Source: Myxococcus sp. RHSTA-1-4 (lineage in GTDB: Bacteria > Myxococcota > Myxococcia > Myxococcales > Myxococcaceae). From it: DNA of 64,000 nucleotides. The DNA lies in contig NZ_JAIQDG010000048.1 in assembly GCF_020037125.1 (NCBI RefSeq), forward strand, positions 1 through 64,000. The letters run 5' to 3'. The position numbers and the translations under genes are program-made. Below, piece by piece: positions 22,292-45,912 of the stretch. The notes beneath the pieces were generated by a model. It saw only the letters and a program-made list of their open reading frames with translations. It had not been told where the DNA came from and did not search any database. The number at the start of each line of letters is the position of its first letter. Within the stretch, counting starts at the first letter, position 1.

Positions 22292-23759
22292 TCAATCCCA
22301 GGCGCGCGTCACCCGCTCCACGAGCGCCATGAGTCCGAGAAGCACCGGGCCGTGCAGCACCAGCGCCACGGCCACCCTCCAGGTCCAGTCCCGAGGCCGC
22401 ACCCACCGCTCACGGGCCGCGTGGGGCAGCAGGTACACGGACAGGGGCACGTAGAGGAGCCGCGCCGTGACGACTCCTGGCGCGTACTCACCGAGCACCA
22501 CCGTCGAGCCCACGTGGGACAGGACGTTGAAGGTCATCGTCACCTGGTAGGTCAGCAGGGCGTACGTCGCCGGCCCTCGCTCCCGCTCCAGGTCCGCCCA
22601 CAGTGCGACGGCGTAGGGCAGCACCGTCACCAGTCCCAGGACGAGCAGGAACTGCGGCAGGGGGACGGTGGCGGCAGTCCGCGCACGGGAGCGGGGCTGC
22701 GCTGCGCTCGGGACTCATTCGTGGCGCGGTCGGGCTTCGCACGAGGCAGGGCGCCGCCTGGCGGTGCCTGGGCCATGGCGGTGCATCGGAGAAGTCGCGA
22801 ACGGGGGCGGCCCTCGATGAATGCCCTCGCGTTGCACGGACCATTGAGAGTGCGTCGCTTTCTCGGAGAGCATGACCCGGCACCACTCCGTCAGAGACGG
22901 GCACCTCTGGCGATGCAGCACCGATGGCCAACGCGGGGCCGCCAGTCCTCTCGGCCTCGACGTGCTCCGCGACAGGCGCAAGCGTGCCGGTGCCTCCAGG
23001 CTCGAAGTCTTCCGTCCTCACCGCCCCAGAAGGAGGCGTGCCCGCGGCCCGTGCCATCTCCTCGGCCCGCACGTTGCCGTAGCCCCGCAGCGCCATCACC
23101 GCCGCCGAGTCCCGCGCTCATGAGGTACAGCTGCTCCGCCGTCCACATACCCCTTCCCCTCTCCCTCGCCCCCAGGGCGATGCTCCGCTGAAAGGAGCGC
23201 TCCTCCCGCGGCATGGTGTCCACCTCAGGGGTCTGACATGGCGGGGAGGCTGGGGTCCGCCACCAGCGAGGACCCGGCGGGTCATGCGGAACGGAGGCTC
23301 CATTCCACGCTGGCGGCCCAGGGCGGGTGACAAGGCGGGAGAGGTCAGGTTGATGAAGCGGTGCGGGCTGCACGGGCCGTGCGGAACGGAGGCTCCATTC
23401 CGCGCATGGCGGCCCGGGCGGGGGGCTGACAAGGTAGAGAAGCGGGGCCCATGCGTGGTGAGCTCGTGGCGGGCCTCGCGGAACGGACGCTCCATGCCGC
23501 GCATGGTGGCCCGGGGAGGCTGACATGGCGAGAAGTCGTGGCATGGGAGACAGGGCCTGGGGCTTCGTGGGTCCTCGGTCTCCCGCACTCCGAACATGCC
23601 GAGTTACCGTTGTGGCTACCGCATGGTCGAGGCGGCTCCATGGCAGGACTCATCCGCGTCCTGGAGCAGTAGCAGCACCCGGTGCATCCCCAGCGCCTCC
23701 TCGACGTTGTGCACGGTCTGCACGAGCGGCACCAGCCAGAGGGCACGTGATTTCGTCAT
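22292..23759 (-). pseudogene. HXXEE-type membrane protein, interrupted by a repeat block
   Basis: Two pieces of one leftward gene. The N-terminal piece starts at ATG 23759 and reads MTKSRALWLVPLVQTVHNVEE, with the family motif H-N-V-E-E, continuing to about 23664. The C-terminal piece reads leftward from about 22680 to the stop at 22292, with LPQFLLVLGLVTVLPYAVALW and then NVLSHVGSTVVLGEYAPGVVTA, which are the late helices of HXXEE membrane proteins. Between them lies repeat block A (22717-23663). The two frames do not rejoin, and an in-frame stop falls at the left edge of the block. HXXEE proteins are small (about 160-170 residues) integral membrane proteins of unknown function. An ATG at 22630 makes the C-terminal piece look like an independent 112-residue gene, which I doubt. 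Confidence 0.72.
22717..23663. repeat. Repeat block A (non-coding, shared with 43547-44325)
   Basis: About 950 bases sharing long stretches with block B at 43547-44325, in the same orientation. The last 100 bases (CTCCGAACATGCCGAGTTACC through CTCATCCGCGTCCTG, in pieces) and the middle (CTCCGCTGAAAGGAGC; GGGGAGGCTGGGG) are nearly identical. It carries about 120 and 110 bases in two places that block B lacks. Three tandem units of about 96 bases begin at 23286, 23381 and 23478, each with the hairpin GGAACGGAGG-CTCCATTCC or a variant. Unit spacing (95 and 97) is not a multiple of three, so apparent frames here are not protein repeats. GGACTCAT occurs at both ends (22711 and 23646). No transposase is inside. 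Confidence 0.85.
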
Positions 23760-42283: not shown

Positions 42284-43375
42284 ATGAGCAGCGAAGCGGT
42301 CGAGACGAAGGACGGAGTGGTGGTGCTGGACTACGCGAAGCTCGCGGCGGGCGAGGACCTGTCGGCCGCCATCGAGCGCGCATATGGGGCCGACGGCATC
42401 GGCCTGCTGGTGGTCCGTGGAATCCCGGGGCTGGCGGAGCTGCGCAACGGCCTCTTGCCGCTCGGGTTCCGCTTCGCGGCGCTCCCCAACGAGGTGAAGG
42501 ACCGGTACGTCCACGCGCGGAGCAGCTACTCGTTCGGCTGGAGCCACGGGAAGGAGCTGCTGAAGCCCGGCCAGTTCGATGAGTTCAAGGGCTCGTACTA
42601 CAACAACCCGCAGTACGACGTGCCACAGGCGGACCCGGCGCTGGTGGAGAAGTACCCGGAGAACTACCACCCGAACGTGTGGCCGGACGCGGACTTCCCG
42701 GAGCTGCGGCCCGCGTTCATGAAGCTGGGGCAGCGGATGGTGGACGTGGGGGTGCTGGTCGCGGAGCAGTGTGACCGGTACGTGCGCTCGAAGCTGGGGG
42801 ACCGGCTGACGCCGGACGGGGAGCTGGCGAGGACGATTCGCGAGTCGCGCGCGTGCAAGGCGCGGCTGCTCTACTACTTCGCCATCAACGAGGACGCGAC
42901 GCCGCGCACGCGTGACTCGTGGTGTGGCTGGCACAGCGACCACGGCTCGCTGACGGCGCTGTGCCCGGCGATGTACTTCGAGGCGGAGCCCGGCGCGCCC
43001 GAGCCGGCGAGGTCGGACATCGCCCTGCCGGACCCGGAGGCGGGGCTGTATGTCCGCACCCGTGGCGGCCAGGAGCGGAAGGTGGTCATCCCGAAGGACT
43101 GCCTGGCGTTCCAGATTGGCGAGAGCTCGCAGATTGTGACGGGGGGGCTGCTGAGGTCGACGCCGCACGCGGTGCAGGCGCTGGCGTATCCGGCGAGCCG
43201 GAACATCTCGCGCTCCACGTTCGCGGTGTTCATGCAGCCGGACAACGACGCGACGATGCGGGCCCCGGAGGGGACGGACCCGAAGGAGCAGCGCGTGGGC
43301 GCGTTCCAGCCGGGGATGACCTTCGGCGACTTCGCCCGGGCGACGTTCGCGAAGTTCTACAACCCGTACGCGTGA
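42284..43375 (+). CDS. 2-oxoglutarate/Fe(II)-dependent oxygenase (isopenicillin-N-synthase-like)
   Basis: 363 residues. Double-stranded beta-helix dioxygenase with the iron facial triad His217 and Asp219 (GWHSDHGSL) and His295 (STPHAVQAL), and Arg near RNISRSTFAVF binding 2-oxoglutarate. The N-terminal half has the helices of the isopenicillin N synthase/flavonol synthase superfamily (PDADFPELRPAF). It probably hydroxylates a small molecule or amino acid; substrate unknown. ATG at 42284 is chosen; an upstream frame from 42233 lacks family sequence. It is the last intact gene before repeat block B. Confidence 0.87.
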   Translation: MSSEAVETKDGVVVLDYAKLAAGEDLSAAIERAYGADGIGLLVVRGIPGLAELRNGLLPLGFRFAALPNEVKDRYVHARSSYSFGWSHGKELLKPGQFDEFKGSYYNNPQYDVPQADPALVEKYPENYHPNVWPDADFPELRPAFMKLGQRMVDVGVLVAEQCDRYVRSKLGDRLTPDGELARTIRESRACKARLLYYFAINEDATPRTRDSWCGWHSDHGSLTALCPAMYFEAEPGAPEPARSDIALPDPEAGLYVRTRGGQERKVVIPKDCLAFQIGESSQIVTGGLLRSTPHAVQALAYPASRNISRSTFAVFMQPDNDATMRAPEGTDPKEQRVGAFQPGMTFGDFARATFAKFYNPYA

Positions 43376-43419
43376 CGTGGATGCTGGCCGGGGCGTTCGT
43401 GTCGGGGCTCGGACGGAGG

Positions 43420-43546
43420 AGCCTCGATGCGTGCTCCCTGGCGAAGCGGGTGGTGCCGAAGACGTTCGAGGTGTGGACGTACAACTTCGGGCCAGGCACC
43501 ACGCGTGGAGACCCTCGGCTTCAAGAGCCGGGACCTGCGCCGTCTG
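43420..43546 (+). pseudogene. Short remnant resembling a DUF2845-type protein
   Basis: Reading rightward, AKRVVPKTFEVWTYNFGPG is in one frame, then RVETLGFKSRDL continues one base out of frame. The motif E-x-WTYNFGP followed by a strand with LxFxxxxL is the usual end of DUF2845-type exported proteins. The remnant runs into repeat block B, where the rest of its coding region is missing. Identification is tentative because only about 35 residues remain. Confidence 0.35.
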
Positions 43547-44325
43547 ATTCGCGGCGCGGTAGGGATTCGCACGAGACAGGGCGCCGCCCCTGGCGGTGCC
43601 TGGGCCATGGCGGTGCATCGGAGAAGGCGCGAACGGGGCGGCCCTCGATGTCGGTCTCGACGTGCTCCGCTCCAGGCGCAAGCGTGCCGGAGCCCCGCGG
43701 CGCCAGCACCGCCGCCGACTCCCGCTCCCTTCCGCTCTGGGGTGAAGCTCCGCTGAAAGGAGCACTCGTCCCGCGGCATGGTGTCTACCCCAGGGGGCTG
43801 GCATGGCGGGGAGGCTGGGGCCCGCCACCGGCGAGGACCTGGCGGGTCCCGCGGAACGGAGGCTCCATTCCACGCATGGCGGCTCAGGGCAGCTGACACG
43901 GCGGGAGCGGTCAGGCTGATGAAGCGGTGAGGGCCTCGCGGGCCTCGCGGAACGGAGGCTCCATTCCACACAGGGCGGCCTGGGCAGCTGACACGGCGGG
44001 AGAGGTCAGGCGGATGAAGCGGTGAGGGCCGCGCGGGCCTCGCGGAACGGAGGCTCCATTCCACACAGGGCGGCCTGGGCGGGGGGGCTGACAAGGTGGA
44101 GAGGCGGGGCCCATGAGGAGTGAGCGCGTGGCGGGCCACGCGGAATGGAACTTCCATTCCGTGCATGGCGGCCCGGGGGGCTGACATGGCGAGAAGTCGG
44201 GGCATGGGAGACAGGACCTGGGGCTTCGCGGGTCCCCGGTCTCCGGGTACTCCGAACATGCCGAGTTACCGTTGCGGCTACCGCGTGGCCGCGGCGGCTC
44301 CATGGCAGGACTCATCCGCGTCCTG
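43547..44325. repeat. Repeat block B, second copy of block A
   Basis: About 780 bases in the same orientation as block A and shorter by internal deletions. It contains four tandem units of about 96 bases starting at 43851, 43947, 44042 and 44140, each beginning with GCGGAACGGAGGCTCCATTCC or variants. In the fourth unit the palindrome reads GGAATGGAA-C-TTCCATTCC, a perfect inverted repeat with changes in both arms. Followed by the same terminal segment as block A, ending GACTCATCCGCGTCCTG. No plausible coding frame spans it, and frames on the minus strand (up to 300 residues) are Arg/Pro/Ser-rich shadows. Confidence 0.85.
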
Positions 44326-44326
44326 A

Positions 44327-44575
44327 ATGAGTCCGGAGCTCTTGGAGGCACAGGTGCTGGCGGACGCGAGGGAGGCCCTGAGCTATTACGGCCAGGAGCT
44401 GAACATCCGCCGGCGCACGCTCAACCCCGAGGGTGACCTGGTGCAGGTCCAGGTCCAGCGCGTTCGCCTCGTCTACGAGGGGGGCGACCTCGGGCCTGGA
44501 AACCCGAAGGAATGGAAAAAGGCCGTGAATGAAGTCAAGAGCAAGGTCACGGGCGTGGAGGTGCTGCTCCAATGA
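44327..44575 (+). CDS. Possible C-terminal remnant of a polymorphic toxin
   Basis: 82 residues: SPELLEAQVLADAREAL, YYGQELNIRRRTLN and then a charged tail, KEWKKAVNEVKSKVTGVEVL. The start codon directly follows the right edge of repeat block B (stop TGA overlapping ATG), so a longer gene may have been cut. Its stop overlaps the start of the next gene (ATGA), the arrangement seen in myxobacterial toxin-immunity pairs. I do not recognise the domain itself. A toxin-tail identity is an inference from the overlap and from the neighbour's immunity-like sequence. Confidence 0.5.
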   Translation: MSPELLEAQVLADAREALSYYGQELNIRRRTLNPEGDLVQVQVQRVRLVYEGGDLGPGNPKEWKKAVNEVKSKVTGVEVLLQ

Positions 44576-45912
44576 AGGTGCTGGAGTTTTATGACTTGAG
44601 GCCGGAGGACCGTTTCTGCTTGTACTTCGAGGCCAGCTTCGACCCTCATTCCCCCCTGGATAGTGAGCTGGAGGCCTTCTTCCAAGCCCTCGAGGCGTAT
44701 GCGGGCGTCAGCATGCCGGAGGTCGTCCATGGCAAGCGGTGGCGCAAGTACTCCCGTGCCGCGGTCTTCAAGGCACTGGAGGAGAGGCGTGACAGTGACA
44801 TCGAGTCCATCGGGCTGTATCGGAAGCAGTGGCCCGCCCTGGACATGTCGCTCAGTCTCTGGTTCCCGCCGCATTTGCCCCGGCTGGACTTCAGTGCCTC
44901 CGTTCAGCCGCTCTCCGTCTTCGCGGACGCCGAGCGCTGCCAACACTTCGTGGACATGGTGCGCGCCTGGACCTCCCACTACCCGGTCACGCATGCCGAG
45001 GCCAGCAGCTTGGCGGAGATCCAGTTGTCGGGCGCTCCCGACTACGGTCGCGACGAGCAGACCTCGATTCGAGACGGCTTCGACAAAGTCTACGAGGTGT
45101 CCTGGCTCAACGTCTTCGGGCCGAAGCTGGTGGAGTCCATCGGCCGCGAGCGGGTGCTGTCCACGCCAGCCCACCGGGTGGAGGAACTACCCCACGGCGC
45201 TGTTCTGCTCGTGACGTGGCCCATCGCCGCGGACTTCGCCCGTGACGAGGCCCGGCAGGCCCAGGCCCGCGCGCACGCGCACCTGAGGCCGGACCTGGAC
45301 TACGCCACGCTGCTGCGCACCCTGCGCGAGCGAAGCGCCATCCTGGCCCCCGTGCAGCCGCGCTTCCCGCCGGAGTGGGAGCGGCTGCTGACGCGGGTGG
45401 TGGACCGGGTCCGCATCAGCGAGCGGCAGCGGAAAATCGCCGAGCTCAACGCCTGGCGCCCCCCGGAGCCGGACGAGTGGCTGCCGGCCCGCGCGGCCCT
45501 GCCTCCGGACGTGAAGGACGTGGACTTCGTGCGCCAGCAGTACGGCGACCTCGCCGAGGGATTGGTGGCATTGCTGCACACCGACGTGCCCTCCGTCTTC
45601 GAGGCGTCGCCGGAGTCGCTGACGGACGTGGACGCGCACCTGTGGTGCGAGGACTTCCTGAGGAACCGCCGGCCGGGAGTCATCGACGAGCACCTGATGC
45701 CGGCGGTGGGGGCGTACCTGGGAGAGGTGCTGGTGAAGCACCTCGGTGGGCAGTGGATTCCACGCAAGAAGCTGGAGGAGGCGCAGGTTCGCATCGGCGA
45801 CCGCGTGTGGCTGCCCTTCCTTCGGGCCCACCGGTACACGCGCTCGCGGCAGGCGCTGCTGGACTTCTCGCTCTCCGGGCTCTACCGCGCGGCCGAGCAA
45901 CACCGCGCCTGA
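44572..45912 (+). CDS. Putative immunity protein (DUF3396/type VI immunity-like), two-domain
   Basis: 446 residues. Residues about 60-255 resemble the DUF3396/type VI immunity fold: LSLWFPPHLPRL, VYEVSWLNVFGPKLVES, IGRERVLSTPA, VEELPHGAVLLVTWP. The C-terminal part (about 315-440) is another domain with EGLVALLHTDVPSVF, LGEVLVKHLGGQWIP and RVWLPFLRAHRY, seen in many myxobacterial orphans. Cytosolic, no signal peptide. The start overlaps the 82-residue gene, fitting an immunity protein encoded after its toxin. The wider family is expanded in Myxococcaceae. The target toxin here seems to be truncated, which would leave the immunity protein orphaned. Confidence 0.6.
   Translation: MKVLEFYDLRPEDRFCLYFEASFDPHSPLDSELEAFFQALEAYAGVSMPEVVHGKRWRKYSRAAVFKALEERRDSDIESIGLYRKQWPALDMSLSLWFPPHLPRLDFSASVQPLSVFADAERCQHFVDMVRAWTSHYPVTHAEASSLAEIQLSGAPDYGRDEQTSIRDGFDKVYEVSWLNVFGPKLVESIGRERVLSTPAHRVEELPHGAVLLVTWPIAADFARDEARQAQARAHAHLRPDLDYATLLRTLRERSAILAPVQPRFPPEWERLLTRVVDRVRISERQRKIAELNAWRPPEPDEWLPARAALPPDVKDVDFVRQQYGDLAEGLVALLHTDVPSVFEASPESLTDVDAHLWCEDFLRNRRPGVIDEHLMPAVGAYLGEVLVKHLGGQWIPRKKLEEAQVRIGDRVWLPFLRAHRYTRSRQALLDFSLSGLYRAAEQHRA

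Follow-up and report, generated by a model that had tools for sequence, protein, structure and literature searches.

The two repeat blocks described here, A and B, lie in one window (the whole stretch of 64,000 nucleotides of Myxococcus sp. RHSTA-1-4 that was analysed) and are very probably deletion derivatives of a family of non-autonomous transposons, in which the sole recognised gene encodes a TetR-family regulator and a tandemly repeated palindrome is the probable operator. Comparison of sequences across genomes indicated that the element has been mobile, that its TetR gene is under purifying selection with the palindrome upstream of it, and that copies which lack the gene often retain both the ends and the palindromes. 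The element is read as one of the MITE or mobile insertion cassette type, with a repressor and its probable operators as cargo.

Two internally deleted copies in the window

Blocks A and B, their common orientation and their tandem units had been described in a sequence-only reading of this DNA, and all were found to be real when the window was read again; the palindromes are spaced start to start by 95 and 97 bases in block A and by 96, 95 and 98 bases in block B. The borders given in that reading differ by at most 5 bases from those set by the inverted repeats and target triplets (22715-23668 and 43545-44330). The conserved hairpin it reported is a genuine palindrome, but the arms as quoted carry one mismatch (C against T), and the quoted sequence, GGAACGGAGGCTCCATTCC, is one form of the family pattern GGAAYGGANNNTCCRTTCC. 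A search for the palindrome at up to 3 mismatches on both strands returned 12 matches, compared to 0.03 expected. The features of the two blocks are as follows.

22715..23668, plus strand: block A, internally deleted element copy (ends common to full-length copies; target triplets counted in)
22715-22717 (left, TCA) and 23666-23668 (right, GCA): block A target triplets, non-identical
22714..22729, plus strand: block A left inverted repeat CTCATTCGTGGCGCGG (exact match to CTSATTCRKGRCGCGG; the first 4 bases are target)
23654..23669, minus strand: block A right inverted repeat, degenerate (inverted-repeat pattern scan)
23288..23306, no strand: block A palindrome 1, probable operator (exact copy)
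23383..23401, no strand: block A palindrome 2, probable operator (exact copy)
23480..23498, no strand: block A palindrome 3, probable operator (2 mismatches)
23034..23117, minus strand: TetR gene remnant in block A (residues 12-39, 82% identity)
23669..23759 (first part) and 22403-22651 (later part tested), minus strand: HXXEE-family gene split by block A
43545..44330, plus strand: block B, internally deleted copy (ends common to full-length copies; target triplets counted in)
43545-43547 and 44328-44330: block B target triplets, TGA, identical
43544..43559, plus strand: block B left inverted repeat (sequence and inverted-repeat pattern scan)
44316..44331, minus strand: block B right inverted repeat CTCATTCAGGACGCGG (exact inverted-repeat search)
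43853..43871, no strand: block B palindrome 1, probable operator (exact copy)
43949..43967, no strand: block B palindrome 2, probable operator (exact copy)
44044..44062, no strand: block B palindrome 3, probable operator (exact copy)
44142..44160, no strand: block B palindrome 4, GGAATGGAACTTCCATTCC, probable operator (perfect arms, diverged; matched at 3 mismatches on the minus strand only)
43428..43544 (first half) and 44331-44576 (second half), plus strand: reading frame split by block B (open across the joined flanks)

Relative to the full-length copy L036 (loci are labelled L and genomes G), block A has lost approximately 0.5 kb, including most of the TetR gene, at 23040/23043, and a further 0.18 kb or so of the element at 22843/22844. 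The HXXEE-family gene split by block A matched PF13787 over its later part (E 3.2e-9), while its first part fell below the cut-off (E 0.037); its frame is open over the homologous stretch of the sibling genome G098 (L174). The frame split by block B had no Pfam match; in both G098 and G120 it stays open over the homologous stretch. A second inverted-repeat pair in the window, 42913-44330, was rejected as spurious, as its left end falls outside block B.

A dispersed family with a duplicated target and empty sites

This genome (designated G000, 11.24 Mb) was searched with block A, and 27 genomes of the genus were compared. The search gave 97 matching pieces in about 40 places (grouped by eye), a count which was taken from 40 scored of 214 candidates, so that more places are possible; it may, on the other hand, include single copies counted twice because they were cut in two at the ends of contigs. 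The family is thus represented neither by the two copies of the window only nor by one local duplication. The earlier suggestion, an element that is dispersed, high in copy number, non-autonomous and moved in trans, finds support in these 97 pieces, in the inverted repeats with their 3-bp duplication and in empty sites in sibling genomes.

The ends of the element are imperfect inverted repeats sharing CTSATTCRKGRCGCGG. The target triplet, TSA, was equal at both ends in 15 of 17 elements (16 real pairs from an end-pattern scan, with L036 added by hand), compared to a mean of 8.9 when right ends were permuted (P 0.001); the two unequal pairs were L043 (TGA/TCA) and block A (TCA/GCA). Because the scan itself required a T[CG]A-like start, only the agreement between the two ends counts as evidence here. 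Among the 16 real pairs a C preceded the left triplet in every case and a G followed the right triplet in 15, giving CTSAG as the target.

The flanks of 10 elements were joined and searched for in the 27 genomes, and sibling DNA was found to cross the joined junction at at least five of the ten sites (block A, block B, L032, L044 and L045). The empty site of L044 is CTCAG, identical, in a sibling, and those of L045 are CTCAG or CTCAA, with small gaps close by; at the L045 site five siblings carry extra DNA in which no matching pair of inverted repeats and no TetR was found. The block B empty sites (L172 and L173) are colinear and read CTGAA in two siblings, that of block A in G098 is nearly colinear with the pentamer GCCAG, and that of L032 is colinear with a target which is not conserved.

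Exact matches to the 16-base inverted repeat numbered 65 in the 27 genomes (0 for the reversed control), with 58 in the 16 genomes that hold the TetR gene; the other 7 are in genomes without TetR, so that a match to these 16 bases can by itself also come from host DNA. Four of these 7 (G097, G102, contig C207 of G103 and G106) proved to be one conserved host locus and were set aside. At up to 3 mismatches the match in G110 had no partner end and that in G111 only a distant, weak one.

Full-length copies and the TetR gene

Five end-to-end copies with a complete gene (L034, L035, L036, L039 and L040) span 1.74-2.09 kb. Ten of the 13 open reading frames of at least 80 amino acids over L036 were scanned against Pfam and the only match was to TetR, so that the recognised gene content of L036, the copy whose frames were searched, is a single TetR-family regulator; a PADLOC search gave no match. 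In G000 and in G120 the gene was found to be flanked by the inverted repeats. The statement that the tandem units are not a protein repeat was borne out for the units themselves, as their length is not a multiple of three, and a protein repeat was ruled out; the full-length copies do encode a protein, TetR, which lies beside the array.

The gene that is mostly missing from block A lies on the minus strand, and the L036 protein matched TetR_N with an E value of 1.3e-7; this domain was present in all 13 aligned relatives. Matches in the PDB extended over nearly the whole length of the protein (e.g. 3he0, E 5.8e-11). The predicted model of the relative from P. fallax (pLDDT 82.9) matched 3pas in Foldseek (E 3.0e-7, TM 0.76), and the 50 rows listed comprised TetR regulators, namely entries so named and RamR, EthR2, RutR, FadR, HapR and RamR-like sensor proteins, all of which belong to the TetR family, apart from two rows for 3on2, an entry whose function is not given.

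This genome holds 6 whole-length TetR copies free of stops and 19 further matches that are partial or distant. Within-genome dN/dS among close copies was 0.26 in G000 (n=6), 0.24 in G120 (n=11), 0.14 in G109 (n=5), 0.17 in G105 (n=3) and 0.07 in G104 (n=3), where the sets were chosen close copies and the more divergent ones of G120, G109 and G105 were excluded. None of the copies used, in any of the five genomes, contained a stop, and with dN/dS of 0.07-0.26 the TetR protein therefore appears to be under purifying selection.

Relatives of the protein were found in 16 of the 27 genus genomes and, weakly, in 2 others of the 145 examined; among the matches listed, fragments counted, there were at least 9-22 in the six richest siblings and 1 in each of five genomes (G107 and G116-G119). 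A scan of named genomes returned 34 TetR loci, 33 of them titled Myxococcus or Pyxidicoccus. The remaining locus, L237, is titled Comamonas sp. KCTC 72670, a label which looks wrong. No relative was found in plasmids or phages at E 1e-5. It was also observed that in L131 (G109) the TetR domain is followed by in-frame tandem repeats of about 72 bp.

The palindrome as a probable operator

In the 11.24-Mb genome there are 199 occurrences of the family pattern GGAAYGGANNNTCCRTTCC and 0 of its reversed control. In sibling genomes the palindrome GGAAGGAACGTTCCTTCC (at up to 2 mismatches) was found upstream of TetR at 36 of 39 loci compared to 1 of 77 control stretches (40 loci were fetched and L156, which was too short, was left out); it lies 50-61 bp before the TetR start in 31 cases and 101-110 bp before it in 5, and 3 of the 39 sibling genes have no upstream palindrome. 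A second upstream motif, the box TGTCAG[ACT]CC (at up to 1 mismatch), was present at all 39 sibling loci and in 4 of 116 control stretches. The same box lies 25-32 bp from 18 of 42 operators in nine G000 elements, and the tandem unit therefore looks like a duplicated promoter-operator module.

The distribution of the palindrome follows that of the gene. GGAANGAANNTTCNTTCC was present in exactly the 16 TetR genomes, at 2-178 copies each, and had 0 copies in the other 11, with 0 copies of its reversed control in all 27; the G000-type palindrome, searched in 147 genomes, was found in the same 16 and once each in G044 and G074. The 16-versus-11 split could stem from just one event in the tree, a gain or a loss of the family, and hence does not amount to 27 independent events. 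Across the 13 aligned relatives the recognition helix carries Phe in three (SVGSF; L036 and L040 of G000 and L155 of G098) and Leu, Met or Val in the other ten, and the GGAAYGGA form of the palindrome is abundant in two genomes, G000 and G098. The match between the helix Phe and the GGAAYGGA-rich genomes is suggestive. The palindrome upstream of L155 itself (P. fallax; L155/L217) is of another type, TGGAGGAATGATTCCTCCA, though that genome is GGAAYGGA-rich. Taken from these sequence patterns, the palindrome is most likely an operator, probably that of the element's own TetR.

Gene-less copies and operator arrays

Gene-less copies were surveyed from exact inverted-repeat matches, in order to avoid operator-led selection, and 57 of 58 ends were read (L045 and L195 were each counted twice, as the two ends of one element). 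An operator was present inside 36 of the 57 ends and in 0 of 57 outside (1.2 kb of outward flank), while 21 of the 57 had none by the rule used. Among the 39 ends without TetR, an operator is retained at 26 (12 of 13 in G000 and 14 of 26 elsewhere). Chance partner ends (L034, L125 and L293) shorten the inside stretch and can therefore only lower the operator count.

Six miniature elements of sibling genomes, 127-635 bp in length, contain 1-8 operators each. Between those of G095, G109 and G105, parts of the spacers agree at 66-88%. At one and the same locus (L197, L207 and L209) there are 4 operators in G109, 8 in G095 and 2 in G105, and by this sequence comparison the arrays there appear to expand or shrink in place. 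A further miniature of 384 bp (L196:2966-3349, G109) has the inverted repeats of the family, no operator and a different palindrome, GAAATGTCGGGACATTTC, which is perhaps the site of another regulator.

It is possible, if doubtful, that TetR is a passenger which was captured once, and that the operators persist merely because they lie near one end and are spared by deletions. The deletions in blocks A and B did take out the middle of the element, and in sibling ends with a GGAANGAA-type operator and no TetR the first operator usually starts 49-67 bp from the inverted repeat. Against such passive survival, the operators have been multiplied into arrays in several species rather than just spared.

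Loci which were found through the operator were also examined (20 loci, 18 from the GGAAYGGANNNTCCRTTCC matches listed and 2 from block A matches). No recognisable inverted repeat was present at 13 of 19, a share which is probably overstated because the loci were mostly chosen outside the fetched block A relatives, and 6 of 19 had one (5 strong and 1 just above the null maximum). The 13, all in G000 and either single or tandem, are L076, L078-L081, L083, L084, L086-L088, L090, L092 and L093; given these loci, not every array is explained by the element. Repeat steps varied with the locus between 46 and 97 bp; two longer ones, of 114 and 179 bp, are probably double. In one case (L084:2584-2602) a perfect operator palindrome lies within a truB-like frame, judged by eye, where it reads RNGRSIP.

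The loci without inverted repeats would fit a second explanation, in which the palindromes mainly serve a TetR protein of the host, one that organises the chromosome or regulates globally; the arrays would then persist for the benefit of the host, and transposons with such sites would hitchhike. SlmA of E. coli is a chromosome-organising protein of the TetR family, and one of three TetR proteins scanned matched SlmA below the cut-off (E 1.3e-4; 21.6 bits against a cut-off of 120); in addition, six genomes hold 94-199 copies of one or other form of the palindrome. This explanation was considered unlikely, as gene and operator are both missing from 11 of the 27 genus genomes, the gene is multi-copy in many genomes, operator counts vary about 90-fold between species and the unit length of the arrays changes from locus to locus.

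That the tandem units make a structured RNA, as the sequence-only reading had proposed, was judged very improbable. The hairpin is conserved and one sibling unit (L198) folds better than its shuffles (z -3.2), but it was the only one of seven folds to do so: the window units gave z of +1.1, +0.2, +0.2 and +1.1 on the plus strand and -1.4 for one on the minus strand, and the five other plus-strand units (four from the window and one sibling) lay between -0.05 and +1.1. Rfam searches of the window and of four loci that carry full-length copies gave no match. In the G000 elements L191-L194, moreover, the spacers matched none of the sibling operator elements compared, and yet a related palindrome is present in both sets.

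The least credible alternative is a REP-like system, in which a REP-associated (Y1) transposase would move the palindromes as single-strand hairpins. It would account for high-copy palindromes in arrays, some of them solitary, but for copies with inverted repeats at their ends it is largely refuted, since the blocks show such repeats with a duplicated target and the palindrome tracks the TetR gene.

Search for a transposase

PF01609 (DDE_Tnp_1) matched 180 times in the genus and 6 times in this genome, and 35 of these loci were read. Weak single end matches occurred, while no convincing inward pair of element ends was found in the 35 loci; PF13340 (DUF4096) gave 0 matches in this genome, so neither route returned an insertion sequence with ends matching the element. 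One of the loci, L137 (G114:C8), is a DDE_Tnp_1 gene about 1 kb from a TetR copy, with no convincing end pair.

An IS1182 element of this genome (L160; NF033551, E 1e-85) is like the family in its CTCAG target with TCA at both ends, which indicates that CTNAG enzymes exist in this genome. It was rejected as the donor of the ends because only the target is in common, its own ends, GGGCGTGAGAA, being unlike those of the element.

Comparison with known systems

RMX is a dispersed repeat of Myxococcus xanthus, a member of the same genus as the host. REP sequences with their RAYT enzymes move by a single-strand mechanism and leave no target duplication, whereas the element described here has inverted repeats and a TSA duplication. 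The encoded protein resembles TetR-family members, SlmA included, in its fold, its HTH and a palindromic site near its own gene; it differs from them in being mobile, multi-copy in many genomes and accompanied by up to about 200 sites per genome.

Mobile insertion cassettes carry a non-transposase gene between transposon-like ends and are moved in trans. The present element shares this arrangement with cassettes of the MIC231 type (named in the reference list of PMC2266710, in its accessible text), but it carries a regulator together with the operator array of that regulator, and many of its gene-less derivatives keep the operators. MITEs such as BrickBuilt and Correia are likewise short, with inverted repeats and a target duplication. 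BrickBuilt, of Porphyromonas gingivalis, contains a tandem repeat (accessible text of PMC4596501) and Correia elements can contain an IHF site (accessible text of PMC10969869); here, in contrast, the tandem unit contains what is probably the operator of a regulator for which the full-length element itself has the gene.

The PATEs and SMRs of Haloquadratum are also transposase-free mobile repeats of high copy number. According to the accessible text of PMC3119063, the ends of SMRs are unrelated to known transposons, PATEs have no inverted repeats and neither group has a target duplication, so that the present element differs from both by its target duplication and from PATEs also by its inverted repeats. 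An element consisting of a repressor with an operator array was not found in the literature searched, which was mostly non-subscription and included the accessible text of a MITE review (PMC10969869).

Proposed mechanism and significance

With the blocks read as deletion derivatives of a TetR-carrying transposon, the following scheme can be proposed. By analogy with other TetR regulators, a TetR dimer would bind the palindrome and repress its own promoter, and the tandem units would be duplicated promoter-operator modules. An unlinked DDE transposase with a preference for CTNAG targets may cut the ends in trans. In the weakest step of the scheme, operator-bound TetR would serve the element itself, as an accessory to transposition, as a control on its activity or as a shield for its neighbours; gene-less copies might then keep and multiply operators because the bound protein matters for the element. 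A stronger version is put forward only tentatively. In it, TetR would act for the element as a factor of mobility or maintenance: it would bind operators close to the inverted repeats and drive or regulate transposition together with a CTNAG-type transposase borrowed from elsewhere, so that the operators would be cis-acting sites of the transposon.

The host group of the element consists of predatory soil bacteria. Seven Myxococcus and Pyxidicoccus genomes have more than 50 operator sites each, a single form reaching about 200, while the sites are missing from sister species without the TetR gene. Since many gene-less copies keep operator arrays, the element appears to scatter probable TetR sites through the genome, and would make a direct connection between mobile DNA and the way in which a bacterial regulatory network grows. 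If TetR does act as a mobility or maintenance factor, the repressor-operator pair would have become a selfish, self-spreading regulatory network that rewires its host. The uneven distribution of the sites amounts to a natural experiment, in which one could ask how regulons come about and whether a transposon can be served by a repressor.
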